This document shows, piece after piece, positions 3,421-45,745 of a stretch of 64,000 bases of DNA. The notes under the pieces were generated by a model. That model was not told where the DNA came from. It saw only the letters and a list, made by a program, of their open reading frames with translations, and searched no databases. The position numbers and the translations under genes were made by a program. The stretch lies in the NCBI GenBank assembly GCA_947561395.2, contig OX387184.1, positions 17,216,205 through 17,280,204 on the forward strand, in the 5' to 3' direction. Positions within the stretch are counted from its first letter, which is position 1. The number at the start of each line of letters is the position of its first letter. The DNA is from Buxus sempervirens. Lineage: Eukaryota; Streptophyta; Magnoliopsida; Buxales; Buxaceae.

Positions 3421-5400
3421 GCCCAAAATGAAATAGTTGGCGGCTTTCCTTTTGGTTGATCTGCTAGTCTTCACAGTAGGATCTTTGAGATATCCCCAGA
3501 TTTCACCTCTCCAATCCTGTCGTATTGCCTGATTACAACATGCCAGTGAATCTACCAAAAATGGTCTTTTCTCGGAATTTGGGAGAGATTGTACGGTCAC
3601 TGTTCTGATTGAATCACGCAATCTGAGTCCGGATGCTAACTGGGCCAATTCATTAGCTTGGTAATTTTTCTTCCTCGGCCGATGTTCAAATTCGATTCTA
3701 TTGAACTGCTGGACTAAGAACCTCGCTCTTCGTAGTAAGAGTACCAATGACTCGCTATTGCAGTTATATATGCCCTCCATTTGCTTTAAGATGAGTTAGG
3801 AATCCCCAACAATATTGACCGCTCGAGCACCCATTTCCCATAAAATTTCCAACCCTATAATCGTGGCTTCAAACTCCGCTTGATTATTCGTAGACAATTC
3901 TTCGAGCTGAAATGCATGTTCGTGTTTGTCGCCGGTTGGTAATGTTATTACCACTCCAATCCCAGAAGCGAATTCTGTCTTTGAACTATCAAATTCCAGT
4001 GTCCATGGTTGGAATTCGGCGTAGCAAAAACTGGCATGAAACACTGGGATATCAAGTTCTTTTTCTTGTACGCTGGATGGATGATCGGCCAAAAAATCGG
4101 CCAATGCCTGTCCTTTTACCGCTTTCTGTGGTACATATTTGAAGTCAAACTCCATCAGAGTCAGAGTCCATTTCCCGAGTCTACCACTCACCGTGGGTCG
4201 AGTGAGCATATATTTAACCACATCGGTGGCTGCTATGACAAAAATTTCTCTGGCTGAAAGGAGATAATGTCGCAATTTGGTAGCTGCATAGTAAAGCGTG
4301 AGACATAACTTCTCCAGATTGGTGTACCTTTCTTCTACCGGAGTGAGAAATCTACTAAGAAAATAAATGGCCTGCTCAAACCCTTGTTCATTCTCTTGGG
4401 CCAATAAGACTCCAATCGAATCATTTGCAGCCGCTATGTAAAGCTTTAGCGGCCGTTCTTTTGAAGGTGGTACTAAAACCGGTGGCGTTGCCAAATATTG
4501 CTTGATGCTTTCGAACGCGGCTTGGTGCTCCTCATTCCAAATAAATTCTTCAGTATCTTTGATCTTTAGTAATGGAGATAGGACCCTGATCTTTCCAGCC
4601 AAGTTTGAAATGAATCTCCTCAAGAAATTCACTTGGCCGAGCAATCTTTGTAGCTGCTGTTTCTTATTGGTCGGTGGTTTGGCCTCTATGACCGACTTTG
4701 CCTTATTTTTGTCAACCTCTATTCCTCTTTGGTGCACGAGAAAGCCTAGGAAATTTCCGGCCGATACTCTAAAGGCACATTTTAATGGGTTCATTTTCAA
4801 GCTGTACTTTCGAAGTCGCTCAAAAACCTGCTTTAAATGTTGTAAATGGTCTTTCTCGGTCTGAGATTTTATTACCACATCATCAATATATACCTCGAGT
4901 ATCTGACCGATCATATCATGGAAGATAAGATTCATTGCCTTCTGATAGGTTGCACCAGCATTTTTCAACCCGAAGGGCATAACTACCCAACAGTAAGTTC
5001 CTAATGCTCCAGGGCAACCAAATACCGTTTTGGCTACATCATCTTCGGCAATAAAAGTTTGATTATAGCCGGAGTGGCCATCCATGAATGACAAATACTT
5101 ATGCCGTGATGCATTATCAACTAAGATATCAGCGATCGGCATTGGATATTCATCCTTGGGTGTTGCAGAATTCAGATTGCGGAAGTCAATACATACTCTT
5201 ATTTGACCATTCTTTTTTATTACAGGCACCACGTTAGAAAGCCAATCAGCGTATCATATTGGCCTAATGAACCCGGCTGATAAAAGCCGTTCTATTTCAA
5301 CCTTTACTTTACATATCACGTCGTTACCCATCCTCCTTGAAGGCTGTCTGAATGGTTTGAATTCTGGCTTGATAGGGAGCTTGTGTTCTACCATTTTTCG
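3421..5400 (-). pseudogene. Reverse transcriptase, RNase H and second (archaeal-like) RNase H of the Tat element
   Basis: The RT palm is clear: VCIDFRNLN, FMDGHSGYNQ, MPFGLKNAGATYQ and the catalytic YIDD box. The usual gypsy RNase H follows (LYIAAANDSIGVLLAQ, FLSRFLTPVEERY). A second RNase H of the plant/archaeal type lies downstream at about 3,600-4,000 (LEFDSSKTEFASGIGVV, NNQAEFEA, VGDS). This dual arrangement is established for the Tat lineage. Part of a broken element. Confidence 0.88.
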
Positions 5401-27617: not shown

Positions 27618-27896
27618 TAATTGGAAGGCTATGGTTCATCTTATAAAAAGTTATAAATTATGCTCTTTTAACATCAATTACAAAATCAAAAAGTCAAAAT
27701 AATTGTTTGATTTTCTTTATGGTTTTCTTTGTAAACAACCAAATAGCAGAAAGTGATTCTTAAAAAATTTCTTCTTACTTTTCTCTAGCAAACCAAACAA
27801 GAGAAATTACCTTTTTTTCATTTCTTTTCCCTTCATTTCTTTTCCTTTTGGGATTTCCTTTCTTTTCTCCCCAAATCCAAGGCTCCAAACACAGCT

Positions 27897-28218
27897 GTAG
27901 GAGCTGAGAAGTTTCTATGATTATGTGACAGTGACAGTGGAGCGTCAATTGTCTCCAAACTATCTCCGTCTTACGGTTTCCTGTTAGGTTCGTAAGAACG
28001 TAACGCGTGTCCGACTAGATGGGCCCCACAAAAGTAGAGGCAAACGTATGGCTGTAAGGCATTTTTTTCTTTTGAATATTTTAAACCTCAAAGGGAACCG
28101 CTTTCGTTTGGCGCCCAAAGGGACGAAATTTTGGACGAGTTTTGATGATTTCAGTCCCGCATTCTTAGTGTCTTTCTTGTTAGCATCCTTTTGGGGAGTC
28201 AAGTCTTGCCAATGTTTG
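27897..28218. repeat. Segment shared with 59,071-61,938
   Basis: Two blocks here match two blocks far to the right in the same order and direction. 27,899-27,960 (aggagctgagaagtttctat; gtcaattgtc) matches 59,071-59,145. 28,055-28,218 (tttggcgcccaaagggacga; ttcttgttagcatcc) matches about 61,790-61,938 at roughly 90 percent by eye. On the right the blocks are 2.6 kb apart because a TIR element lies between them; here they are about 100 bp apart. Confidence 0.85.
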
Positions 28219-28377
28219 GGTGGAAAAGGGTTCTTTGATTGAATGGAGTTACATAATGAATGGCCGAAGCATCCTTGAAGACTGAAACGATGATGCCATT
28301 TGGTCGGAATGAATGTTGGGGGGTGGGTGGGGGGCATGGTGTTCTAATTCATGGTTTATTTCTCAAAACAATTATGC

Positions 28378-28834
28378 TTTTCTCTTATTTTAATTTTTAA
28401 TATTTCCGAAAATCATAAGACGAAAAATACTTAATAGAGGAAATTAGTTAAATATCTAACTTTATCTGTTTATTTGTAAAAATGCCTCAATCAGTTTATT
28501 TCAAAGAATCGTGAAAATCAAGTTTTAAGTTATGACTTACCAAACGCATTTTTGTTGATTTTGAAAATTTTAATCGTTTTGTATCAATTGTTACCAAACA
28601 GGTTTTTTGTCACATGTTTTCAAAAACCCAAAAACAATTGGAAACGTTTTCAGTTTTCAAACTATTTTAAAAAAAAAAAAACGTTATCAAACAACCTCAA
28701 AGCTTTTCTCCGATTTTAGTTTTTAATATTTACGAAAATCATAAGACAAAAAATACTTAATAGAATAGTTTATAATTTGCCACATTTCTTTTTTTACATT
28801 AGAGGAAACCAGTTAAATATCTAAATTTATCCGT
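28378..28834. repeat. Direct duplication around a MITE-like insert
   Basis: The phrase 'cgaaaatcataagac' followed by 'aaaaatacttaatag' and then 'agttaaatatcta' occurs at 28,407-28,470 and again at 28,731-28,824, the second time with about 50 extra bases. Between them (28,535-28,700) lies a T/A-rich block with inverted words (ccaaacgcatttt, ttgttaccaaacagg, acgttatcaaacaacc) typical of small plant MITEs. The rest up to 29,220 holds only short repeats of 'gcttttgaaatga'. Confidence 0.5.
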
Positions 28835-29284
28835 TGATTCGATAAAATTTTCTATGTAAACGCAGTGATGGTGGGCAATGAGTGATAAAGTTAACAAGTT
28901 GGAAATTTGTAATACGAAGGCGAGCTTAATAATTTTAAAAAATAAATTATATAGTAGTCCTGAGCTTTTGAAATGATGATTTTTTTTTTTGTTTTTGTTT
29001 GTGGTAACAAGCTTTTGAAATGAATGATCGTGTGCATTTTGAAATGAGCTTTTGAAATGAATTTTTTTTTGTTGGTAAACGAGCTTTTGAAAATGAATGA
29101 TCAACCCAAGCGCGACATGCGTCCAACCCAATGTTCCTCAGCGCAAGTCCGTTTCGTTGCGTTTCCGTTAGTTTTCATTTGAATGCCGTCCGTTTCCTCT
29201 CTCCGTCATTTGTGAACGATTAATATAATCGATAATTTTTGAAAAATTCAAACACCGTTTCCGTCCTTTCCCCCTCCCGATTGG

Positions 29285-29471
29285 ATGCGAAAACGACAGT
29301 CGAGGTCTGCGTCTCGATTGCCGAACCCGAGACACAGAAGTAAGAAGGAACTGCTCTTCCTCTTCCTCCATGTCTTGTTATCCTTTTTGTTCTTGTGCAA
29401 GCAGAGAGCATTCAAGCAACGCACAAGAAACTCCGGCGGCGGCACAAACAGATTCGAACGGTTCGGAAATG
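29285..29471 (+). CDS. Gene-like first exon, unknown product
   Basis: A GC-richer block with two open frames ends at GGAAATGTAAGT, a strong splice-donor context, and it is preceded by a pyrimidine-rich leader. In one frame a short product begins MSCYPFCSC at 29,370 and continues with a Ser/Ala/Gln-rich segment. A Cys-rich start can serve as a membrane-anchor N-terminus, but no family is recognisable. The next exon, if any, would lie beyond the solo LTR that starts at 29,540. It could be an orphan exon. Confidence 0.3.
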
Positions 29472-29539
29472 TAAGTTTTTCTAGCCACTATTCTTTTCTC
29501 CCTTTCCTCTATTCTTGTGACATACACCAATTCAATTCT

Positions 29540-32500
29540 AGTATCTTATGGCCTAAACCACAAAAATACTAGAATTGGTATGTCGGGCAACAAGTAAATC
29601 CGGGTCTTAATTAAAATTTAAGACAATAAATCCGAATTCACTCATTTATGAACATTACCAATCAGCTGATACCAACAGATAATACATGTTCATCAAATAT
29701 ATCAGAGTGCAGTAAATCAAATGATGATAAAGCAGAAGACTTAATAGAATATCTAACTCGAAATCATAATCTCAGAATGTAAAATCACTGAAATGAAATA
29801 CAATAAATGAGGATAACTACTATACCTCTAAACTTGGATCTACCCGAAACCAACTGCTAACACTCTGGAATCTGTACAGTCTATATATATAATAAACTAA
29901 ATGAGATTGGAGATCCCAGTAAACCATCATATGATAAATTAAATATACATGCAGATATATCTCAAATCATAATACATCACAAGTAATCAAGTGCAAGTGA
30001 GACAATCTCGTATCCCACTAAATAATATGAATTCACAATAAGGTTCAGAAGAATTACAATAATCATCAACTGGAATATATAAATCAATTTATAACTTAGA
30101 ACCAGACCAATTCTATTAATCCGATAAACCATATCATATTATTCACAAGACTAATTAAAGTAATGTCTAGCCGGAACTATAGACATCGGCCAGGACTACA
30201 ACTATAGTATTCAGACTGGGATGCACAGTCCTTGGATCACAAGATCACCACATACACACATTTCGGGTAAATCCCCTTCTACCGGGAAGTACCAATCACA
30301 TCGCTCACACTGCCAAGAGGAATCGAACGTCTCGACTGGCCCTGTCAGGAAGAATCACATATCGACTGACTCACATCACAAAATAAATAAAAACATGCCG
30401 GGAGGAATCCTCAACTCAATCAGCTTCATCGCTCCAATCAGTACGACTCCCTCTACTCCCATACTGATGAGCCTTCACACACTCAAGTTTTAATTATCTT
30501 TTTAACATTCACACAATAATTCCATATTCAAAACATAATAAGGATCTCATTGAGATCAAATAGTGAAATTCATTTTTCTACCTTACATATCGGTAAAGTG
30601 CTAACCCGCTATTGATAAGTTAAACTTATCGCAGCGTAAAACAAATTTAATTAGGGTGCAATATACACAAATCAAAATTATGAATACTCATGTGTGTGTC
30701 ATTTTATTCAAATATGCATATTTTTCTCAAAATAATAATATTATAATATAAATGCAATTTAAAAATCATGCTAATGGAATTCACATGAAATATTTAATAA
30801 CAAGGATAAACAGCATTGTTTGAAAGTTACTATACATATATAATCGATAAAATCCGATTTAAGATTCTCTGATGCAAATATATAAATCATACTATCACAC
30901 AACCATTCACTTACCAACCCCAACTTTTAATTAAATTGACAAAAATTCTCTTTCATATAATATGCTAAATCTCACCTAAGTTACACATTCCTTCTTTAAT
31001 TTTTATTAAATTAACTTTATCCTATTTTTAAACTAATTTTTAAATCTTAAAATACACTTTTAAACACTTTTCCTTAAATTTTGATTTTTCTTTCAAAAGG
31101 TGACTAAAATGTAATTATATATTCTTGTTTGCACCTATTTGTTGAATTTAACTAAAATCTAAACTAACAATTAATTCTTTAAGTTCTGCACACTAATTTA
31201 ACAATAACTCTCCAATTTATAACTGTTTGCAGATTACTATATCAATTTTGGATTGAAACTTAAATACTTTTCAAATTCGACGCTGCCTTCATTTTTCTCT
31301 TTTTTCTGTGATCAAATGTGCTACTTTGAGGATTTTTGTAGGTCAACACAGGAAGCCTATGAATCTAAAATCAGTTCCTATGTGTTCTATACCTGGCAAA
31401 CTAATTTTGGAGCAATTAATTTGAGATTTATAATACAAATGCATAAACTTAAAGATATCTTAATACCACCCAAAACCATTTGCAACTGTCATGGTAAACC
31501 ACAAACAGAGCATCTGTATATGATTCAAAACTTGAACAAAGCCTCTAATTAATCAACTAAAATCAAATGAGTACAATATTTAGACATTCAACAACCAAAA
31601 TACCTATTTTAAATCAAATTAAATTGATGAATTACTTTCTTTAGTGCATAGCATTCAAGTACTGTCTATACTATAGTAGAAATCGACATTATTGTAAAAT
31701 CCAAAAGCAGATGGTGATTAACTTTATTTAGTTTTAGAATAGATGGTGATTAACCTTATTTTAAGCCAGAAATTTTACTAATTTGTAATACCACAGAAAT
31801 TAACATTGTTGTACTAAACCAAAATAGATGGTGACTTACAGGTTTCTGTGTGCAGATTACGGCACCTCAAAGCTTGGACCTTCTCTTTAGTTAAGCAACT
31901 CACAAAACACAATCCTCATAGACTCAAAATACTCTTATGCGAACTCAAATTAGCTCCCACACTGCTGTAGAAACTCTCCTCCAAACCATCAGCAAACTAC
32001 GGGGAAAACACGGAAAAGGAAACTGGGGAAAGAAAAACAAAGAAGGGGAAACTAAGAGAAGAGCGAGATAGGTTTCTGTCGACTATTCCAGAACCTGGCA
32101 CCAAGCTTAAAGTAGGTGTAAGACTCGATTAAACAGGTGTATCAACCAAGCAACACCGTCGGTTTGCCCAATCACTTTGCTGCTTAGACTAAGGGACCTC
32201 TATGGTACATAGACCAAATACAGCTAAGTCAAACTTCAGCTTAAATACAAGAGCTTGCAAGACAAATAGGACTTCTAGAATCCATCGAGTTGAAGTTAGA
32301 TGGGTTAAATGATTTCATACATTGTCTTTGTTGAAAACTCTTACATAAGCATTAGAGAATCAATTTGTAAAATTAGAGAAAGCGAGAGAAAAGGCGTAAA
32401 GCACGCTAAGTAATAGAAGTATACTATGGTCCTACTCCCTTAACACCCTTCACACATACTCTAATCATTAAGAAGACCCCTAAATTGCACATGCTTAAAT

Positions 32501-32890
32501 ATAAGGCCAATAATCAAAATTTTTATACCAATAATTTACATATTAATAGAATAAAATAATTTAATAATTTTCCTCCAACAAAATACCAAGTTAGTCCTCC
32601 ATTTAGCAACTACATTTAAAATTGCACAAATTAAGGAATAAAAGCCTTGAATTTAAGTTAAGTTAACTCTAGTAAATCCTCAAATAGATGTAAAATAGTT
32701 GATAGAAAATCACCACAAGCAAAATATAAATAATCTCGTATCTAAAACATGTGAGTTAAATTTCAAATAGGCCAATTAACCTAATTAATAAATATAATTA
32801 ATTACAATTAATTCAATAAATACAAAAATAATTAATAGAAAATCTTTTAATTAGTCCAAATACCAGATTAGAAAATTTTGGGATGTTACA
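29540..32890 (-). mobile_element. Solo LTR, Ty3/gypsy Tekay-like, 3.35 kb
   Basis: The right end reads TGTAACATCCCAAAATTTTC on the minus strand and is flanked outside by attct (32,891-32,895). The same attct stands at 29,535-29,539, which sets the left edge. The middle has the conserved layout of the LTR at 51,648-54,121 (an AT-rich part, a 'gagtgc[a/g]g' phrase near the inner end, a GC-richer block around 30,190-30,450) but little base identity. No gag-pol is present, so it is a solo LTR left by recombination. An alternative is a non-coding LARD-type element. Confidence 0.65.
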
Positions 32891-33333
32891 ATTCTTCTCT
32901 CCTTTTCTTCTCTGTATTTACTCTGCATAAAGAGCCATGTTCTCGACAATGGCTTCTCAGTCTCTGGGCCTGATAATTTTTTCTTTCTCCTTAATCTAGG
33001 GTTGTCTTTCTTGCCTTTTTCTTTTGCCTTGAAATTAAGGCATCATTTCATCTTGTATCATTCAACATCATCCTCAGCATAAGCATAAGGATCAACCTAT
33101 CGTTCAATACCAAGGGTATAACATGCGTCCCTCAACAGCTTAACGTGAGCTACCATGTATATTAACCCTTCTTCGTCACCATCTTTCTTACTAAAAGTCC
33201 CAAGTTGTGGTTCGACATGAGGTGGGTTTTGAGATGTCTCATGGAGTCAGTATCATTGTAATATCTTATTTTGTCCTTAGTTTAGCTTCTGAGAAGCTCC
33301 TTCTGTAGTTTGGTATTCGTCAGGTCTACGTGT
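32891..33333. other. Intergenic DNA between solo LTR and fold-back
   Basis: Pyrimidine-rich sequence with no convincing gene. 'tctctccttttcttctctg' continues the pyrimidine-rich style of the sequence left of the solo LTR, as expected if the LTR split one region. Confidence 0.4.
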
Positions 33334-33982
33334 CCTTGTATTCTTCTTCTTGTTCGCCCATATATACTTCATATTCTACTGACTCAATCATGAATCAAAA
33401 ATCGATACTCTCCTTTGTATTGGAGATTTAGGAAAGTTATTTGGTTGGAAGATGGTGCGCCTTCATGTGGCCCTTGCATATGTGATTGTCTTCCTCCTTT
33501 GTCTCTCAATAAGATAGCCCCTGGTATGATTTTTGTTTTAAATTTCTCGTCATTTCTTTTCTTTTCTTTTTTTTTTCTCTTAATGTGTTTTGTGGTTTCA
33601 TTCTCGTTGTTTCAAGTATTTGTGTTTCCCGGTGTCTATTTGTTATTTGTTTTAACTGTGATTGGATAGGGAGGCTACCATATTTGATCGAGATTTGTAT
33701 GAAATCATTTTGTTTTGTGGTGTATGTTTGTCTCCTTTTCCTTATGATTGTCTTACCAAGTGTTTGCTCCTTTTTGTTGGCCTAAATTTAGCAGGCCATG
33801 AGCAAAAACTGAATGTGACGATATAAGGCTTCAGACCATGATATCTCAAGCTGTTAATGAGACTGAAGGCGGGTTCGGTGTATTGGCTCTTACATATCCA
33901 GAAATCAAAGTGATCCACAAAACGATGTCAGTGTCCGACATATCAAGGAGGAGGCTTTGTACTCGGCGAAGATTATCGTATT

Positions 33983-36900
33983 TGTAAGCACCTCATTTTT
34001 GCGCTCTCAAAAAGCCAGAAATGCAAAACCCGGCTAAAAAGTCAAACCCTGAGGGGTGAAAAGTTGACCTTTTAATCAGACAAAATTTGGCCACCTTACT
34101 TTATCTCAATGGATAGAGAATCTCGACACGAGTCCAACGCAACTGGGTTTGCAGGAATCGGAGTCCGGATGAAGGTTCCGCGGGAGGTCAAACTCAAGGA
34201 AAAGCCAAGAGTTGACTTTTCCTCGATTTCCGTGTCAAGTACCTTGCTCTATACCATTGGATAAAGAACCTCGACACGGTTCCAACGCAACTGGGTTTGC
34301 AGGAATCGGAGTTCGGATGAGGGTTCTAAGGGCAGTCAAACTTAAGGGAAGGCAAAAAGTTGACTTTTCCTTGAACTCTGTGCCAAGTGCTTAGCCCTAT
34401 GTCATTAAATAGGGGGCTCCGATACGAGTTCAACGCAATTGAGTTTGCTCAAATCGGAGTTCAGATGAGTAAAATATGAGCTGTCAAAGTTTCCGAGCAG
34501 CAAAGCCGGAAGCTGCACACATGGCGCAGAAGCTGCACACGTGGCAGCCAACGCAGCGAAATATCTCGGGGACTAAATCTTAAATATCCAAAATTTAATA
34601 AAAATCCCAGGGACTAAACTGAAATTCGCAGGGACCAATCTGTAATTGTTCAAAAGTGTCGAATCGGTCGAATCGGTCAAGTCGAAGGGCAAATCCATAA
34701 TTTTCCAACTTGTATCCGGTCATATATGCCGGATACACATACTCCCCTTTGTATCCGGACTTGAAGGCCGGATACAAGAAGATTTTCGCGCGAGATTCGC
34801 GCCGATTGCCCGACACATTCGTGGCGGCATTTAATTTTTGAATGATTATGTTTTGTATCCGGCATTTAATGCCGAATACAAAGGAAAACTAGTGTATCCG
34901 GCCTTGAAGGCTGGATAAGGGGGAGGCCTTAATGTATCCGGCCTGAGTTGCCGGATACATTAAGTTTTCTATAAATAGCAAATCAGCAGCTCATATCCGG
35001 GGTTGGCTTTTTTGGGTGGCTTCACAGCTCTCTCCCAGCACTCGTCCCCACCTGAACTTTGCCTCCTCCAGCCCCTTTTGCCTTCCCTAACACCCCCACA
35101 CCTTTGCAAGGCCATCCAACCTCCTGTTTCTACTTCTTCTCCACCCCCTCACCAAAGTCTAAGGAGGGTAGCTGCTGTTGGTGGTTGCAAGGGAGTGCTC
35201 CAGCTCCATCCACGCCCAAAGGAGGTTGAAGCATACCTCAGAAATCAGTTGTGCATAGCAGGTAAGGTTCCTCTTCACTTCATGTTATACATATATTAAA
35301 ATGGATTTTTTCAAAAGAGTTCAAAGAGTTTGATCTCCCACTGCTGTATGGCTGTGTTATTGTTCCTTTGCATGCATTTTCTTTCATGGTTGGGTAATAT
35401 AGTGGTCTCCAAGGGCAAGTGAGCCCTCAGGTGTGGTTTTCGGTTAGAGTAAGAGGATTGGTTGTCCCACTCTAAGCCACCAAGTGCGCTTTTTGGGGAC
35501 TTCGGTTACTCAAAGAAGGGAGTATGTTCCCTCATGCAAGGCATGTCTAATGTATCCCTATATAAGCCCCCTTCCCTCACCTTTCTGTATATTTTCGTGG
35601 CTGTATGAAGTCTTGGGTTTAGATGTCGCTAGGAGGTGGACAAGATGCATGTTAGATCATGGTTCGTTCCCTGGGTTTCCTCTCTTACCTTAGTTTTTTC
35701 TCTTGCTGATTCCCTTACCTCTTGCATGCTGTGTTTTTTTTTTTCTGTTAATTGATAATGAATGCTAGACTCCTTTAGTTATACCTGTGTGTTTATGCAT
35801 GGCGAGTCATCTTCTTGTGTGCATACATGTCCTGGTCAATCATGGAAGCATGCCTCAAGCCATGGACCCTTGCTATTGTGTGCTGTGGTGGAGCTTCAGA
35901 AGCCAAGGCAGGGACACCTTGGTCCCTACCATAGTGACATGCATGATCCCAAATGGGAGAGACACCAGGATGTCTTTCCCTCCTCCATTTACTTTGCCGG
36001 AAAGTCCCCAAAATAGGCCGAATGAAGCCTTTCCCCCAAACCTGAACCCCTGTGGGCCCATCTAGGGGCCCATACAGCCCACAGAAACCCCTGGGAACCC
36101 CCTGGAAACACCCCGAATGGCAAAAAGCCCAAAAAAGGCCATTCCAGGGTGATCCGGCAACTCAGGCCAGATCACCTGTGGCCTGGGTGTATCCGGCCAG
36201 ATCACCCATGGCCTCTGTGTATCCGGCCACTCAGGCTGGATCACTTGCAGACCCTGTGTATCCGGCCTGAGTTGCCGGATACACACAGAAATGTGTTTTT
36301 TTGTGTATTTTAATGTCTTGCTAAATTTTGGAATGATTTGAAGCTAAACCAATTGAACCGATAGGGTTTCCGGGTCACCCGGAAACCCAACTTGGGACTT
36401 GGACCAACCGGTCCAACTTGGCTCACTAGTGGGCCTTCCAACAGGGCCCACCAAGTCCAATAAACAGCAAAGCATGCTATTAAATAACTTAAGTAAAATA
36501 AACCAATTGAATCGAGCGGGCTAGACCCAATGCGGCCCACCCAAGCCTTGTCATGTGTGGATTAATGCATAAACTGCTTGGTTTGGCCGTGACCGCGGGC
36601 AAGGGTCTATCGGGCCCGCCAAAACCCACTAACCGAACCGAGTTAGGGTGCAAGCCCTAAACTCCAAAGAACTGGGTTTTCCAGCCCAAAACCTGGATCA
36701 CGGGCCCCAAGCCCAGTGACCAACCCATTGTGGCAAATTAAAAAGATAAAAATGTAAAATTCCTTGGCCACCATGTGGACCCACCTAAGGGGCCCACAAA
36801 CCAATCCGACCCACCTTTTGCATAAGAAAACACTTAATCTTCCAAATCCAAACCTAAGCAAAATCAATTCATTATCCCAAGGCCCGCAGGGCCTCCTAGG

Positions 36901-37332
36901 GCTAGATAGAGGCCCACCAAGGGCACATGGGCTCACCCAAGCCCGCCAAGGACGCCGTGGGCTTTCCAACGGGGCCCACCCAGCCAGACCTAGACCACTT
37001 AAGATAAGCAAAGATAAAATCAACTAAAGGGACCCACACCACTCAGGTGGTCCCGCCAAGACCTAACAAAAAGCATGCTGGATTAGGAATCGGGTGAAGA
37101 CCAAATAGTAAGCTGACTCAAATCAGGGAACCCACGGGACCCGTCATCCAACGGGGTGGACTGGGGTGTCTACGGACTTCCCCAGACCGCAACCGAGAAC
37201 CAAACATAGAATCTCAAGCCGCAGACCAAAAGCCCTTAAGTAGACAAGATTAGGCATCCAGGTGTCCGCCTGCACCCCATCAGGCGGTGGCGACTCTGAA
37301 TTACCCCGTGCCGCGTTTCCCACGCGCGCACA
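33983..37332 (+). mobile_element. Solo LTR, 3.35 kb, in the left arm of the fold-back
   Basis: Starts TGTAAGCACCTCATTTTTG and ends GCGCGCACA, flanked on both sides by GTATT (33,978-33,982 and 37,333-37,337). The right arm of the fold-back carries the same site with a single GTATT and no insert. Inside are a TATA box (tataaata, 34,970), a candidate splice donor near 35,260 (agcaggtaagg), and many dyads built on TATCCGG/CCGGATA. It is related to the LTRs at 43,182 and 48,685 (shared 'caacgcaactgggtttgc'-type words). The lineage is Ty3/gypsy by general layout; no coding part is present. Confidence 0.88.
34690..36290. promoter_or_regulatory. Dyad array around the TATA box of the solo LTR
   Basis: Inverted pairs of TATCCGG and CCGGATA occur at least four times before the TATA box (about 34,714, 34,751, 34,854 and 34,930) and again after it (36,146-36,285). 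The clearest pair has 13-base arms TAATGTATCCGGC and GCCGGATACATTA at 34,930-34,962 with a 7-base loop. A second copy with the same core and loop at 36,255-36,285 has arms TGTGTATCCGGC and GCCGGATACACA. The role is unknown. Confidence 0.75.
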
Positions 37333-38013
37333 GTATTTTGAGACACAGTCGATGAGGGAGCTCCCACGTCTGAGGGTGAAGCCGGGCTAGATGAAGAGGG
37401 AGTGGATTTGATTGGTAAAATGATACTCGCGGAGAAAGACTGAAGCTTTGAGGGCTTGTGGGTAGAGGCCGTGGCTTGTTAGATTTCAAATGCAGCTCTA
37501 TTGAGAAACAGGGCACGAGCTTCATGCATATTCGGTCGCATCAGCTAGCTTCAAATAAATCAAAAGCCTTGCCTAACATGACACTCTTTTATTGTACTTG
37601 CTAACTTTCTCCTATCACTATCCTTTTTTTTTCCAAGTAATCCTCTTGTTTTGAATGGAAAGATAGAAATTTTCATTTTTTTGAATGGAAGGATAGAAAC
37701 TGTGTTACATGCAACAAAGCATAATTTAGCACTTGCGGCTTATCCAAGCCATGTCGTGTAAATGCTTATTAACCTATAAAATGGCAGAGAAAATGAATGT
37801 TCAGGATTACTTATCAAGATTGTCCACTTATCAAGATTACTTGTCAAATGGATGTTAAGGATTTACATATGGTGCAAAGTTTTCTATTTTATCATAACAG
37901 TATTCATCTACTTTTGTGATGAGGACCATCTTTAGCATATAGGTAAACTATATGGTTAATCTAACATGGACAGGCTCAATGTTGAACACGGTATTTTAAC
38001 CTATTTGTATATA

Positions 38014-38999
38014 TCCCACCATGCCCCGTTACAAGTCTCATCATGCCTGGTTACAAGTCCCACTATGCTTGGTTACAAGTCCAACCATGCGTGGTTACAA
38101 GTACAAGTCCCACCATGCTGATTATTTGTCCTACAATGTCTAGTTACAAGTCCCACCATGCCCCGTTACAAGTCCTACCATCCCTGGTTACAAGTCCCAC
38201 CATGCTTGGCATGGTGGGACTTGTAACCAGGCATGGTGGGACTTGTAACCAAGGATGGTGGGACTTGTAACTAGGGATAGTGGGACTTGTAACCAGGGAT
38301 GGTGGGACTTGTAACTGGGCATGGTGGGACTTGTAACCAGGGATGGTGGGACTTGTAACGGGGTATGGTGGGATTTGTAACTAGGGATCGTGGGACTTGT
38401 AACTAGGGATGGTGGGACTTGTAACCAGGCATGGTGAGACTTGTAACCATGGATGGTGGGGCTTGTAACGGGGCATGGTGGGACTTGTAACCAGGCATGG
38501 TGAAACTTGTAACTAGGGATGGTGAGACTTGTAACCAGGAATGGTGGGACTTGTAACTGGGCATGGTGGGACTTGTAACCAGGCATGGTGGGGCTTGTAA
38601 CTAAGTATGGTAGGACTTATAACCGGGCATGGTGGGGACTTGTAACCGGGCATGGTGGGACTTGTAACCAGGGATGATGGGACTTGTAACGGGGCATGGT
38701 GGGACTTGTAACGGGGCATGATGGGACTTGTAACCAGGGATGGTGGGACTTGTAACCAGGCATGGTGGGAAGACTTGTAACGAGGCATGGTGGGACTTGT
38801 AACGGGGCATGGTGGGACTTGTAACCGGGCATGGTGGGACTTGTAACTAGGCATTGTAGGACTTATAATCAGGCATGGTGGGACTTGTACTAGTAACCAC
38901 GCATGGTTAGACTTGTAACCAAGCATAGTGGGACTTGTAACCAGGCACGGTAGGACTTGTAACGAGGCATGGTGAGACTTGTAACAGGGCATGGTGGGA
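38014..38999. repeat. 22-bp tandem array with internal switch of direction
   Basis: The unit core is catggtgggacttgta, with a variable 'accagg/actagg/acgggg' joint. About 35 units run in one direction from 38,206 to 38,999, and about 8 units run in the opposite direction from 38,014 to 38,205. The switch is at ccatgcttggcatgg (38,199-38,213). The long open frames across it come from a repeat unit not a multiple of three but poor in stops, and they are not genes. Confidence 0.95.
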
Positions 39000-40308
39000 T
39001 ATATACAAATAGGTTAAAATACCGTGTTCAACGTTGAGCCTGTCCATGTTAGATTAATCATATAGTTTACCTATATGCTAAAGATGGTCCTCATCACAAA
39101 AGTAGATGAATACTGTTATGATAAAATAGAAAACTTTGCACCATATGTAAATCCTTAACATCCATTTGACAAGTAATCTTGATAAGTGGACAATCTTGAT
39201 AAGTAATCCTGAACATTCATTTTCTCTGCCATTTTATAGGTTAATAAGCATTTACACGACATGGCTTGGATAAGCCGCAGGTGCTAAATTATGCTTTGTT
39301 GCATGTAACACAGTTTCTATCCTTCCATTCAAAAAAATGACAATTTCTATCTTTCCATTCAAAACAAGAGGATTACTTGGAAAGAAAAAGGGATAGTGAT
39401 AGGAGAAAGTTAGCCAGTACAATAAAAGAGTGTCATGTTAGGCAAGGCTTTTGATTTATTTGAAGCTAGCTGATGCGACCGAATATGCATGAAGCTCGTG
39501 CCCTGTTTCTCAACAGAGCATTTGAAATCTAACAAGCCACGGCCTCTACCCACAAGCCCTCAAAGCTTCAGCCTTTCTCCGTGAGTCTCATTTTACCAAT
39601 CAAATCCACTAGCTCTTCATCTAGCCGGCTTCACCCTCAGACGTGGGAGCTCCCTCATCGACTGTGTCTCAAAATACGATAATCTTCACCGAGTACAAAA
39701 CCTCCTCCTTGATATGCCAGACACCGACACCGTTTTGTGGATCACTTTGATTTCTAGATATGTAAGAGCCAATACACCGAACCCGCCTTCAGTCTCATTA
39801 ACAGCTTGAGATATCATGGTCTGAAGCCTTATATCGTTTCGGTTTCTGCTCATGGCCTGCTAAATTTAGGCCAACAAAAAGGAGCAAACACTTGGTAAGA
39901 CAATCATAAGGAAAAGGAGACAAACATACACCACAAAACAAAATGATTTCATACAAATCTTGATCAAATATGGTAGCCTCCCTATCCAATCACAGTTAAA
40001 ACAAAGAACAAATAGAAACCGGGAAACACAAATACTTGAAACAACGAGAACGAAACCACAAAACACATTAAGAGAAAAAAGAAAAGAAATGATGAGAAAT
40101 TTAAAACGAAAATCATACCAGGAGCTATCTTATTGAGAGACAAAGGAGGAAGACAATCACATATGCAAGGGCCACATGAAGGCGCACCATCTTCCAACCA
40201 AATAACCTTCCTAAATCTCCAATACAAAGGAGAGTATCGATTTTTGATTCATGATTGAGTCAGTAGAATATGATGTATATATGGGCGAACAGGAAGAAGA
40301 ATACAAGG

Positions 40309-40477
40309 GGATGGTTTGGCAAATTTTGCCTTTGACCATTACCCTTGTTTCTGGTTAAACTGAGTTCTCGGTACCTTATCTCCTCTGGTGAGGTATGACT
40401 TTGTAGGCAAAGCGTTGTTGTGTTTTATCCCTGATTAATGAAAGTATGCTAAATTTGTTATTAGAAAAAAAAAGTGT
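40309..40477 (+). mobile_element. LINE 3'-end fragment
   Basis: Starts at the fold-back edge with gatggtttggcaaattttgc, which reads DGLANFA as in the RNase H tail of plant L1 elements (usually A-D-G/W-L-A). It runs through a short 3' UTR and ends in an A-run at 40,466-40,475. The size and A-tail fit a fragment of an L1 3' end. Confidence 0.4.
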
Positions 40478-41151
40478 AAAACGTAAAAATCTATTTGTAG
40501 CTAGAGCTTTAAGTAGAGTGGATTGGGCTGGGTTTTGATGAGTCTAGGCTCAACCCAATCTAAAATCAATTGGCCCAAACTCACCTTGGTCTACCCTAAA
40601 CCCAAACTGCTTGAACCCAAAACCAACCCTAAAATTATTTCTCGAGTTCAGACTAGGTTCGAGTTTGCCCAAATTAATAGGATCTATCAAGGATCTAATG
40701 AAATATAATAGCAAAGGCAACAAGTCTATAATGTTTTTAGTATAAGAAAGCAAAAAATTGAGTTTTTAAGTTATAACATTTCTAAGATTTATTGACTAAA
40801 TTATAAAACAACACATTCAACATTATGAAAGAAATAATTACTGAAAATGTGGTCATTTGTAAATCTCAAGTCATTATCCATACAAAGGTCAACATTGTCA
40901 ACACTCCTAAATCTTGAAAAGGTTATAGTTTTGAAGCTTTATGCTCAATTCTATGGAACCTTATCTATTGGGGAATTGATTGGAAAAATAGAGAGGAAGG
41001 GCTTGGAGTTTGAAAGAACTTAGGAAGAAGATGGGATTTGCGATAAATCATTTAACCTTGGCTTTATATAGTTCGGACTTTTTGGGGTTTTCAGGCTATG
41101 AGATTCAAACCCAAGCCCAACCCAAACTCAAGTTCAGGCCTAAAATCAAGC
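40478..41151. other. Intergenic DNA with a proline/asparagine-codon-like low-complexity patch
   Basis: Near 40,520-40,640 and again at 41,095-41,150, 'aaccca' and 'aagccca' words are dense and partly mirrored (gggctgggttt versus aaacccaagccca), like the ends of a small hAT-type MITE. No target duplication was found and no gene is seen. Confidence 0.35.
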
Positions 41152-42110
41152 TGTAACGCCCCAAATTCAGGTCTGCCCTATCACAGCACCAACCCGTACC
41201 CGAGACCTACTTATGGGCCCAATAGAACCGGATTAACACAATTAATCCTGGGAAATTTCAAAGTAATCATCAGAGTGCATGACTAAAGAAGCATGGAATA
41301 AAAATTTCCATCTAATCAAAATGTCATATGTACTATAATCTCTAAAACATGATATATATGTGAATAAAATACAACTAAGGCAACTAACCATTTACAATGA
41401 TCTCTCCAAAATATATAGACATGTACAAAAGATATCTCCCAAGAGTATAGGTCCAAAAATAATATTTACATCCCATATACAATCCCCAAGACAAAATACA
41501 TCATTATAAAAAGAACCCTACTATGGTTGGTAGAAATCCTCTGGCCTGAACTAAAGCTCACCCTCAATGCCTGCCCCAATATGCGGCTCACCAAGCGGAT
41601 CTGAAAACAAATCTGGTAAAACAAAACATGCGTGAGACTTAAAGTCCCAGTAAGCAGCGAACATGCATGTAGAGAAATAGTTTATGCAATTTTGTAACAT
41701 CATGATAATATTCACAAGTATAAGATACCAAATGTAAACCAAAACATCTCAAAAAGATATAGAGTGTAATTCCAAGTCAAATATCTCAATCGGGTTCGTG
41801 TAATCAAATCAACCATTCCAAGTCAAATGTCCAAATCAGATTAATAATCGTTGTCCAAGATTAAGGCCAAGCGGAGTATTTCAACACTGCCGACGGATCA
41901 AGGCCCAGTGGAGTACTTCTACACTGCCGATGAAATCAAGGCCAAGTGGAGTACTTCTACACCACCGATGCATCAAAGCCAAGTGGAATACTTCTACGCT
42001 GCCCGATGAATCAAGGCCAAGTGGAGTACTTCTACGCTGCCCGATGAATCAAGGCTAAGCGGAGTACTTCTACACTGCCCAGTTCATGAAATCCAAAATC
42101 AATCAAAACG
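41152..42110 (-). mobile_element. Tekay-like LTR fragment with internal minisatellite
   Basis: Begins TGTAACGCCCCAAATTCAGG on the plus strand, matching the inner-end style of the LTR at 51,648 (TGTAAAGCCCC). Also in common are a 'gtaagcag' phrase and a 'tctgaaaacaaa' phrase at similar spacing (41,610-41,660 versus 52,080-52,140). No matching opposite end was found, so it is a fragment. It contains the tandem repeat at 41,865-42,085. Confidence 0.5.
41865..42085. repeat. Minisatellite, about six units of 37-40 bp
   Basis: The unit is built from ggccaagtggagtacttcta, then c[a/g]ctgcc and cgatgaatcaa. Six imperfect copies are in a row. Such arrays inside large plant gypsy LTRs are known. Confidence 0.85.
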
Positions 42111-42939: not shown

Positions 42940-45745
42940 CTTCTCTATTGCTGTAGAATAAGGCCATATCTTTTATTCTGTATTCCTAAACTTGCCTTTA
43001 AGTACCTTAAGAGTCTCTTTAACCGTAAAACGTGAAGAGAGAGCTAGGGGAAAAGATAACAGGTGGATCCCTAGAATAGAACCCCATATCTATTTTTCTC
43101 CTTTTTTATAGAATAAAGCCTTGGATTGTGTTTGTAACACCAAACCTATCTCTAAGTACCTCAAGAATCCTCTCTAGCCGTTGTGCGCACCTAAACCTGG
43201 CCTAGATCGCACACCGGGCGCACCTTTCGTGCGTGCCTCGGGACATTCGGAGTCGCCACTACTTGAGAGTGCAGGCAGACACGGTTTTGCCCTAACCGGG
43301 TCTAAGTCTGGTCTGCGGCTTTTTAGAGATCTAGCTAAGTCCTCGGTTACGGTTCGGGGAAGTCTTAAAGACACCCCGATCCGCCCCGTCGGTCTAACGG
43401 GTCCCTCGGGTCTCCCTGGTTTTTGAGTCAATCTCACCCTTCCTAGACCAGCATGCTGCCTTATCAGGTCTGGCGGGGCCCTCTGAAGGTGTGGGTCCCT
43501 TTTATTTTGATTTTATCTTTCTTATTTATTTAGATGAAGTGGGTCGGACCCGGATTCCGTTGGAAGACCCGTGGGTTGCCATGGTTGGGCTGGAGGCCTA
43601 GTAGGGTTATTGGGTAACCTTTTTTGGTTATTTATTAAATTTTATAATATTTACAAATTTTTGGGCTTGGTGGGCTTGAGTTTGGCCCACTAGCCTGGAG
43701 TCAGGTGGCCCTGGGCCTGTTTTATTGAAAACGGGCCGGGTTTGGGCCGGTCTGAGATGGGCCCCACAAGTAGGACCAGGGTGGTCTTAGTGGGCCCATT
43801 TGGGCCTATAGTCCAAAAATGGGCTTAAGATAGCCCAAATTATTTAAGAGACTGGTTCAGGCTGGTTTGGGTCGAATTGGGTTCAACCGGATCAAATACA
43901 TTAATTTTAAGTCATTTTTCTAATATGACCGCACTTATTGTGCGGTTTGGTCAGAACTGTTCTGTGTGTGCGGTTGCTGCTTAGTTTCACTTGTTTGCAC
44001 CGATTTCAATCTGGATCACTTTGTTTGATTTTCTGGGGCTTCCAAAAACCTCCGTCAGGCTTCCAACTCCTTTGAGATACTGCATTTGCCTCTTTTGGCC
44101 TAAAAGGCCTCTTTCTTACTTTCTTTCAGGTTCTTTAGAATCATGAGCTTCTCCTCCTTTTTTGTTCAGTCAATCACAACTACTATCCAGTAGGGAAACG
44201 GGGAGATTACAGGGGTGGATTAATTCTAAAAAGAAACCAACCATCATAGCAAAATGAGTTAGTTTAAAGTGTCCATATTAATTGATGGATAGCCTCCTCT
44301 TTTTTAATGAAATAACCACCTTAATTTAGCCTTTCATGGCCTTAGACAAGCAACAAAATAGGTTAGAAATAGTGAGGTAATAAAAGATATATGAAGACAT
44401 AAAAAATGATTATGTTATACTTTGCAAAATAAAAAATACTTACAATGAAGCTTTTTTGTTGATTTACTTGTACTTTGTGGTACTTCGAAAAATTGGGCAG
44501 CGCTTCCGCGTCCCCTTAGATCTCCAAATTGGGTTTGGGCAGGGTTTTGATGGGTTACTTATGTTTATAGGGTGAAGGGTGAGAGTTTAGGCAAGGTTTG
44601 AGCAAAGTAAAGGTATTTTGGGGATTTGAGGTTGGGTATTGATAGAGACAGGGTGTGGGCAGAGTTTCGGATGGGCAAAGAACAGGGAGAGGGTGTGGGG
44701 ACCGAAAGGGGGCTAGCTTACTCCAAATGGGGGGTGGTCCCCCTTTTATAGGCAAAAATTGGCCGGAACCGTGCTTTAAGTGCGGTTTGGTCACAACCGT
44801 ACTTAAAGTGTGGTTGTGACAAGATTGTACTAAAAAGTCAAAAACTGCGCTTTAAGTGCGGTTGGCATTCAACACGTGCAAATCTGCGCGAACCTACCAG
44901 CTGTAGCCGTACAAGACACGCGTCCACCTTCTAGAAGATCAAACCGTATCTGAAGTGCGGTTCAGATCAAACCGTACTTCAAGTGCGGTTTCGCACGTTT
45001 TTTAAATGCCTGATTTCAAACAGTTTATGAAATTTGATTTTTAATAAAGATTTTATTATAAAATTCGAGATTCTTTATTGCTATATTATTAAAATATTCA
45101 AAATATCTAAAATTATATTATTAAAACATTAATATATGAATATTTTATTTATTTTGCTTTATCCTGCTGTTTTTGCCACACGGGCTGTTTTCTTGAATTT
45201 TCAACTGCTCATAACTTCTTCGTTTGGTGTCCGATTTGAGCAAACTTAGTGTTGTTGGAATCAGCTCAGAACCAGCTATCTATTGAGATCAAGCTTGGCA
45301 GTTGGATTGGGGCCGAGCAAAAAGTCAACTTTTTGCTCTCTGGAAGTTTGACCGGGCATATTTTTCTCACCTGGACTCCGATTCCAGCAAACTCAGTTGC
45401 GTTAGAACCGTGTCGAAATGCTCTTTTCAATGATATAAAGTTTGATGGCCAAATTTCCTTAATTGGGAAAGTCAATTTTTTGACCCCCTTAGGGTTTTGA
45501 CTTTTCATTTTCCTTCATTTTGGGGGTGCAAAAATCAAGTGCTAACAGCCGTAAAACGTGAAGAGAGAGCTAGGGGAAAAGAGAACAGGTGGATCCTTAA
45601 AATAGAACCCCATATCTGTTTTTCTCCCTTTTTTTAGAATAAGGCCTTTGATTGTGTTTGTATAAACAAACCTATCTCCAAGTACCTTAAGAATCTTCTC
45701 TAGCTGTAAAACGTGAAGAGAGAGCTAGGGGAAAAGAGAACAGGT
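42940..45745. repeat. About 155-bp tandem repeat, three units, split by a solo LTR
   Basis: Units contain 'gtagaataaggcc' or its variants, 'aagtacctcaagaatc' and 'aaaacgtgaagagagagc' followed by 'aggtggatcc'. The last phrase occurs at 43,026, 45,552 and 45,708. The solo LTR (43,182-45,547) sits between the second unit's 'tctctagccgt' and its continuation 'gccgtaaaacgtg'. Confidence 0.85.
43182..45547 (-). mobile_element. Solo LTR, 2.37 kb
   Basis: Starts TGTGCGCACC and ends GGTGCTAACA-like (agtgctaaca), flanked by the perfect 5-bp duplication GCCGT (43,177-43,181 and 45,548-45,552). On the minus strand it reads TGTTAGCACTTGATTTTTGC, close to the starts of the LTRs at 33,983 and 50,882. A minus-strand TATA box lies near 44,740 (tataaaagg). 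Dyads of the form ACCG..CGGT lie at 43,925-43,980 and 44,765-45,000. No gag-pol is present. Confidence 0.88.

Follow-up and report, generated by a model that had tools for sequence, protein, structure and literature searches.

A probable degraded fold-back Mutator-like element with gene-like fragments in its arms in Buxus sempervirens

Introduction

What kind of DNA is the long palindrome at positions 33,334 to 40,308 of a 64,000-nucleotide stretch of the Buxus sempervirens genome (assembly GCA_947561395.2, contig OX387184.1, positions 17,216,205 to 17,280,204; the whole stretch is called the window and the contig C4), and how did its two opposed arms come to face each other across an array of 22-bp repeats? 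The original prediction for this DNA likened the architecture to that of Drosophila FB elements and held it to be rarely described in plants. Our analysis, in which genome searches covered the 676.5-Mb assembly, identifies the feature with high confidence as a fold-back Mutator-like element (MULE). Elements of this kind are known, and other loci of this genome hold relatives of the window copy. The fuller description, that of a degraded, non-autonomous fold-back MULE of the Pack-MULE kind with the history proposed below, we consider likely.

Results

The left arm (33334-33982 and 37338-38013) is inverted relative to the right arm (39000-40308), each arm holding about 1.3 kb of unique sequence, and the repeats are far beyond chance, judged by length and identity alone. 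Between the arms, the orientation of the 22-bp array switches at about 38,207, where a short palindrome sits, and the two halves of the array are of unequal copy number. The left arm carries an insert of about 3.35 kb with a 5-bp target duplication, and the right arm keeps the uninterrupted site. This insert is read as a solo long terminal repeat (LTR) because no open reading frame of at least 130 aa is listed in it (the longest has 126 aa) and the sole direct repeat at least 80 long inside it is a 148-bp tandem; dispersed stretches related to it occur at loci L033, L035, and L037. The inverted arms, the flip of the array around a palindromic centre, and the LTR insert had all been foreseen by the original prediction and are borne out. 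The features of the palindrome are the following.

33334-33982, + strand: left arm, outer part (95.1% identity to the right arm over 650 aligned columns)
33410-33788, + strand: DUF1068-like gene fragment, part of exon 1 and intron (83.7% to L012 1476-1852)
33791-33982, - strand: first part of a pentatricopeptide repeat (PPR) gene fragment, split by the LTR insert (33791-33973, 84.9% to L012 7389-7205)
33983-37332, no strand: solo-LTR-like insert, TG...CA, target duplication GTATT (33978-33982 and 37333-37337), placed by its sequence ends
37338-37575: continuation of the PPR fragment past the LTR insert (79-80% to L012)
37338-38013, + strand: left arm, inner part (97.5% identity to the right arm over 682 aligned columns)
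38014-38205, - strand: 22-bp array, short half (8.7 copies, with the repeat itself traced over 38014-38209)
38187-38227, no strand: palindrome centre, where the direction switches (near-identical centre in L009; other loci differ)
38208-38999, + strand: 22-bp array, long half (35.5 copies)
39000-40308, - strand: right arm, in which the gene fragments of the left arm recur inverted (from the arm alignment and the gene-piece matches)

The DUF1068 and PPR matches correspond to two places about 5 kb apart in a single locus of C11 (L012), at 79-85% identity. With the PF06364 profile, E is 2.6e-15 for the C11 gene and 9.4e-5 for the window piece, whose 22.8 bits lie under the cut-off of 25; the PF13041 profile matches L012 6934-7698 (E 6.3e-28). 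Both genes lie on the + strand in L012, and their pieces are oppositely directed in the window. Two further short matches to L012 fall in the unpaired part to the left of the palindrome, at 32909-32980 (82%) and 32999-33048 (88%), and a locus of C21 (L013) likewise resembles the DUF1068 exon at about 80%. L012 is the closest relative found for the gene pieces, a candidate parent whose parenthood is unproven. The fusion of the two pieces is common to the window, L009, L010, and L011, the last of which appears to be a related one-armed element at which no clean target duplication was readable.

The prediction had staked itself on the existence of further copies, and the outer-arm search returned 10 matches, the window's own two among them. 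The sister copy L009, at C4:16.926-16.930 Mb, has flanks that match those of the window at about 98% and is without the left-arm LTR insert; because of these flanks it is called a segmental duplicate and is not counted as an insertion of its own. The duplication, with copies about 326 kb apart, pairs window 28700-29713 and 31591-42061 with C4:16.919-16.932 Mb at about 97-98% where compared. L010, at C14:11.750-11.754 Mb, is a complete palindromic relative with arms of about 2.16 kb that share 96% identity, arrays included, and contain the DUF1068-PPR fusion and the 22-bp array as in the window. Its termini are of Mutator type (CAGCCCGCATCCTCTC), both arms begin CAGCCCGCATCCTCTCC, and it is flanked on each side by a perfect 9-bp target duplication, TCCAAATCT; it is an independent copy.

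The family extends well beyond these loci. The genome search with the array listed 100 matches, from the best 40 of 508 candidates, and 20 additional loci were retrieved, four from inner-arm matches and 16 from array matches. Exact 9-bp duplications next to matching ends were sought by an automatic test (up to 4/16 mismatches, at least three different letters in the duplication), which was positive at 7 of 23 array loci (L010, L030, L033, L040, L042, L047, and L049), compared with 21 of 506 control pairings of halves from different loci, some of which fall in the array. By eye, the duplication at L032 agrees at 8 of 9 bases, and L052 has a 9-bp duplication, AGAAGAGGA, that was dropped from the automatic test by the rule on three different letters; at the ends of L031, no target duplication was readable. 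The terminal motif, with at most 3 mismatches, occurs 220 times genome-wide (115 + 105), and the reversed control occurs 0 times. Searching for the MULE domain PF10551 gave 150 matches (the best 150 of 1051 candidates), whose distances were taken to 100 terminal-motif ends among the matches listed. Of these 100 ends, 15 have a domain within 5 kb on the inward side (none outward, 0.11 expected), and 26 have one within 20 kb (2 outward pairs, 0.44 expected). Because the domains cluster inward of the listed ends, transposase-bearing members with these termini very probably exist, as suggested by the domain-to-end distances.

Other members differ in size and content. L052 is a 9.28-kb fold-back relative with an eIF3c fragment (PF05470) at 4434-4895; its arms, 99.2% identical, suggest that it moved or underwent conversion recently. 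Ends like CGACCGATTTCCTCTA mark a second subfamily among the array carriers (L036, L038, L042, L043, L044, L045, and L048).

The extent of the window copy can be read from a paralogue of its flanks. L050 carries the counterparts of window 27,896-29,102 and 40,306-41,151 at a distance of 714 bp from each other, which places the inserted block of the window at about 29,103-40,305. On the left, the block begins with a MULE terminus that lacks about 48 bp. On the right, it ends with the right arm, so that the right terminus seems to have disappeared along with host DNA. The edges of the palindrome were rejected as the ends of the element, as termini are absent there and transposon-derived DNA reaches left to about 29,104; visual inspection of these edges (33334 and 40308) found no 9-bp duplication. 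Three terminus-like matches in the window were judged to be chance: 44687 (motif with 2 mismatches, in the far flank), 45074-45147 (74%), and 30735-30766 (84% over 32 bases). Around the palindrome, the block and its flank comprise the following.

29104-29262, + strand: left Mutator-like terminus remnant, outermost ~48 bp gone (84-90% identity to the termini of L010, L030, and L031; host homology to L050 ends at 29102)
29263-29515, no strand: internal element part, unpaired on the right side (covered by the sister copy only, among the best 40 of 549 candidates)
29516-32890, no strand: nested solo-LTR-like unit, TG...CA, target duplication ATTCT (29511-29515 and 32891-32895), placed by its sequence ends
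32896-33333, no strand: internal element part, unpaired (covered by the sister copy only, among the best 40 of 246 candidates)
40306-41151, + strand: host flank (in paralogue L050 it neighbours window 27896-29102, with ~714 bp between)

Numerous dispersed genomic copies start or stop near the ends of the solo-LTR-like unit at 29516-32890. The right flank contains a dispersed repeat of high copy number, about 650 bp long, at window 40500-41151 (2716 candidates; the best 40 of 2716 mostly at about 91-92%), and window 41863-42079 holds a 38-bp tandem repeat in 5.8 copies.

Discussion

The identification as a fold-back MULE joins structure with family membership. The window shows the long inverted arms and inner tandem repeats of a fold-back, and target duplications of about 9 bp, as expected of MULEs, occur in the family and not around the window copy, whose ends are lost. 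Because the termini of the degraded copy are not intact, its membership rests on L010 and the rest of the family. The label Pack-MULE-like is used because the arms hold pieces resembling DUF1068 and PPR genes, and the same fusion lies within the intact ends of L010, that is, host gene fragments inside MULE ends. Several results weigh against this identification: no intact terminal inverted repeats were found beside the window palindrome and no target duplication is visible around the window copy, 16 of the 23 array loci gave no 9-bp duplication in the automatic test, and the array was not observed inside a transposase-bearing member, such members being indicated by domain proximity. The window feature is most likely a dead, non-autonomous transposon copy at present.

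Its proposed history begins with an ancestor that would have been mobilised in trans by a MULE transposase. An asymmetric element could have had one of its ends copied, inverted, onto the opposite side while a break or an excision gap was being repaired. In the window lineage the two end copies would have been joined within the 22-bp array, so that both arms of the resulting palindrome would stem from a single end, as in maize Mu killer. Asymmetric elements occur in the family: L031-L033 have short terminal repeats, and their arrays run one way. Nine loci, the window included, were compared with the two ends of such elements. In the window, L009, L010, and L030, both arms match end A of L031-type elements past the shared terminal repeat. 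The centre junctions of the carriers are of four or more types, namely window/L009 (two bases differ), L010, L039/L049, and L040/L047, and L011 has another direction switch, situated outside the element. The differing junctions, together with the four of nine loci having both arms from one end, suggest formation of palindromes in the manner of Mu killer. We read the pattern as repeated one-end duplication, joined in the array at some loci, and consider the chances for this mechanism even.

Several observations speak against such a course. The window and L009 count as one lineage among the four end-A loci, both sides of L042 match end B weakly (67-71%), and at L040, L047, L049, and L052 neither end is preferred. 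At L030, both ends are of type A and the arrays all run one way; one-end duplication therefore need not join within the array, and our estimate for the mechanism was reduced on this account. The array is reversed at L040 and L047 although their matching ends are just 65-66 bp, and the opposed arrays of L035, L042, L044, L048, and L038 have long spacers between them, which also speaks against a simple rule. In the outer arm, 7 of 8 sites that split two to two group by locus and 1 groups by arm, and the outer-arm tree clusters the left arms of the window and L009 with L010 (support 0.886). Gene conversion between the arms could likewise yield grouping by locus.

Gene conversion is the main rival: the palindrome may have arisen once and been homogenised later by arm-to-arm conversion, with array turnover blurring the centre. 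That single outer-arm site and the outer-arm tree, which connect left arms across loci, are consistent with one origin, as are array lengths that vary widely between loci; the inner-arm sites (20 of 20 that split two to two group by locus, 0 by arm) and the differing centre junctions argue against it, and we regard a single origin as possible and rather less than probable. A broader form of one-end duplication would make the array a recurrent site of palindrome formation, at which two copies of one end are joined time and again, turning ordinary two-ended elements of this MULE family into Mu killer-like hairpin loci; the family would so keep generating its own silencers, here carrying host DUF1068 and PPR sequence; this form we consider unlikely.

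The remaining explanations do without a MULE fold-back. That the feature is a local inverted segmental duplication or host palindrome of no transposon origin might be argued from edges without termini or target duplication and from the copy about 326 kb off, a segmental duplicate with matching flanks; it is largely refuted by the occurrence of the fusion and the array in the complete C14 element with its 9-bp duplications, and the terminus remnant at the left break and the evidence of L050 that the block is inserted make it very improbable. Long inverted repeats are difficult to assemble, but a false inverted join is, on indirect evidence, hardly credible when the arms differ by 2.5-5%, only one of them holds the LTR, and the design is shared by the sister L009, with nearly the same centre, and by the C14 relative. 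A Foldback/Galileo-type element of the P superfamily, as in Drosophila, would be alike in shape, with long arms and inner tandem repeats, but the 9-bp duplications and the PF10551 domains behind the same ends make this reading scarcely tenable (P-type transposases were not searched for). The original interpretation thus stands for the fold-back, the inner repeats, the palindromic centre, the LTR, and the further copies, and fails for kinship with FB beyond shape, the family being Mutator-like.

Returning to the fold-back MULE, transcription through the palindrome could produce a hairpin whose arms exceed 1.3 kb and would then give rise to small RNAs; Mu killer is the precedent. The locus may be a small-RNA source today, a proposal that we hold tentatively and that falls somewhat short of probable. 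Taken alone, the window copy is one further fold-back MULE. The family is useful in that asymmetric, short-arm, and palindromic forms with differing centres occur within one genome, and because of this diversity the origin of long-arm, Mu killer-like transposons could be tested there.

The comparisons that follow concern known systems as described in the accessible portions of the cited sources. No family of this kind is named in the literature searched, whose coverage was partial. Fold-back elements are known from plants: FARE, Tnr8, and a 1997 paper about plant fold-back elements are among the references of PMC3169594, FARE and MuTAnT appear in PMC4486113, and Mu killer in PMC3440606. Pack-MULEs consist of MULE ends around host gene fragments (PMC3169594 and PMC8277862). 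The DUF1068 and PPR pieces of the window and the eIF3c piece of L052 are of this kind, and the window differs in having its gene pieces in both arms of a palindrome. The Arabidopsis FARE elements are fold-backs whose palindromic repeats are long and which are now placed among the MULEs (as cited by PMC3169594 and PMC4486113), a likeness in repeats and class that is set by description only. MuTAnT of Medicago is also a MULE with fold-back arms and differs by a size of mostly 200-300 bp and by insertion in TA microsatellites (PMC4486113). The Tm1 Mutator/Foldback family of root-knot nematodes has 9-bp duplications, composite arms with a variable count of a ~14-bp tandem motif, a MULE-like transposase member, and a possibly acquired host motif (PMC3169594). 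It shares with the Buxus family the duplications, the short tandem motif in the arms, a transposase member (in Buxus a very probable one), and possibly acquired host sequence, but is an animal family with a 14-bp motif and other ends. Tetris of Drosophila virilis is a fold-back with tandem repeats in its arms, whose unit also occurs in free arrays and for which a transposase was not found in the account given (PMC4079207). Tandem repeats in fold-back arms are thus common to Tetris and the window element, with a unit of ~220 bp in the former and 22 bp in the latter.

VANDALs are MULEs as well. In Arabidopsis, these transposons have tandem repeats in non-coding parts that are targets of VANC, a transposon-encoded anti-silencing protein (PMC5735166). 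The window element shares the repeats in non-coding parts, the anti-silencing target role being that of VANDAL, and a role of the 22-bp array as a binding site is only an analogy. The maize Mu killer (Muk) is a Mutator derivative built as an inverted duplication, with both of its ends supplied by the same element end, and it is the proposed source of a hairpin RNA, with short antisense transcripts also found and proposed as another route (PMC3440606). The window element would resemble it in the one-end inverted duplication, which four of nine loci support; Mu killer duplicates mudrA, whereas the arms of the window element, as read from their sequence, hold host-gene pieces and the 22-bp array.

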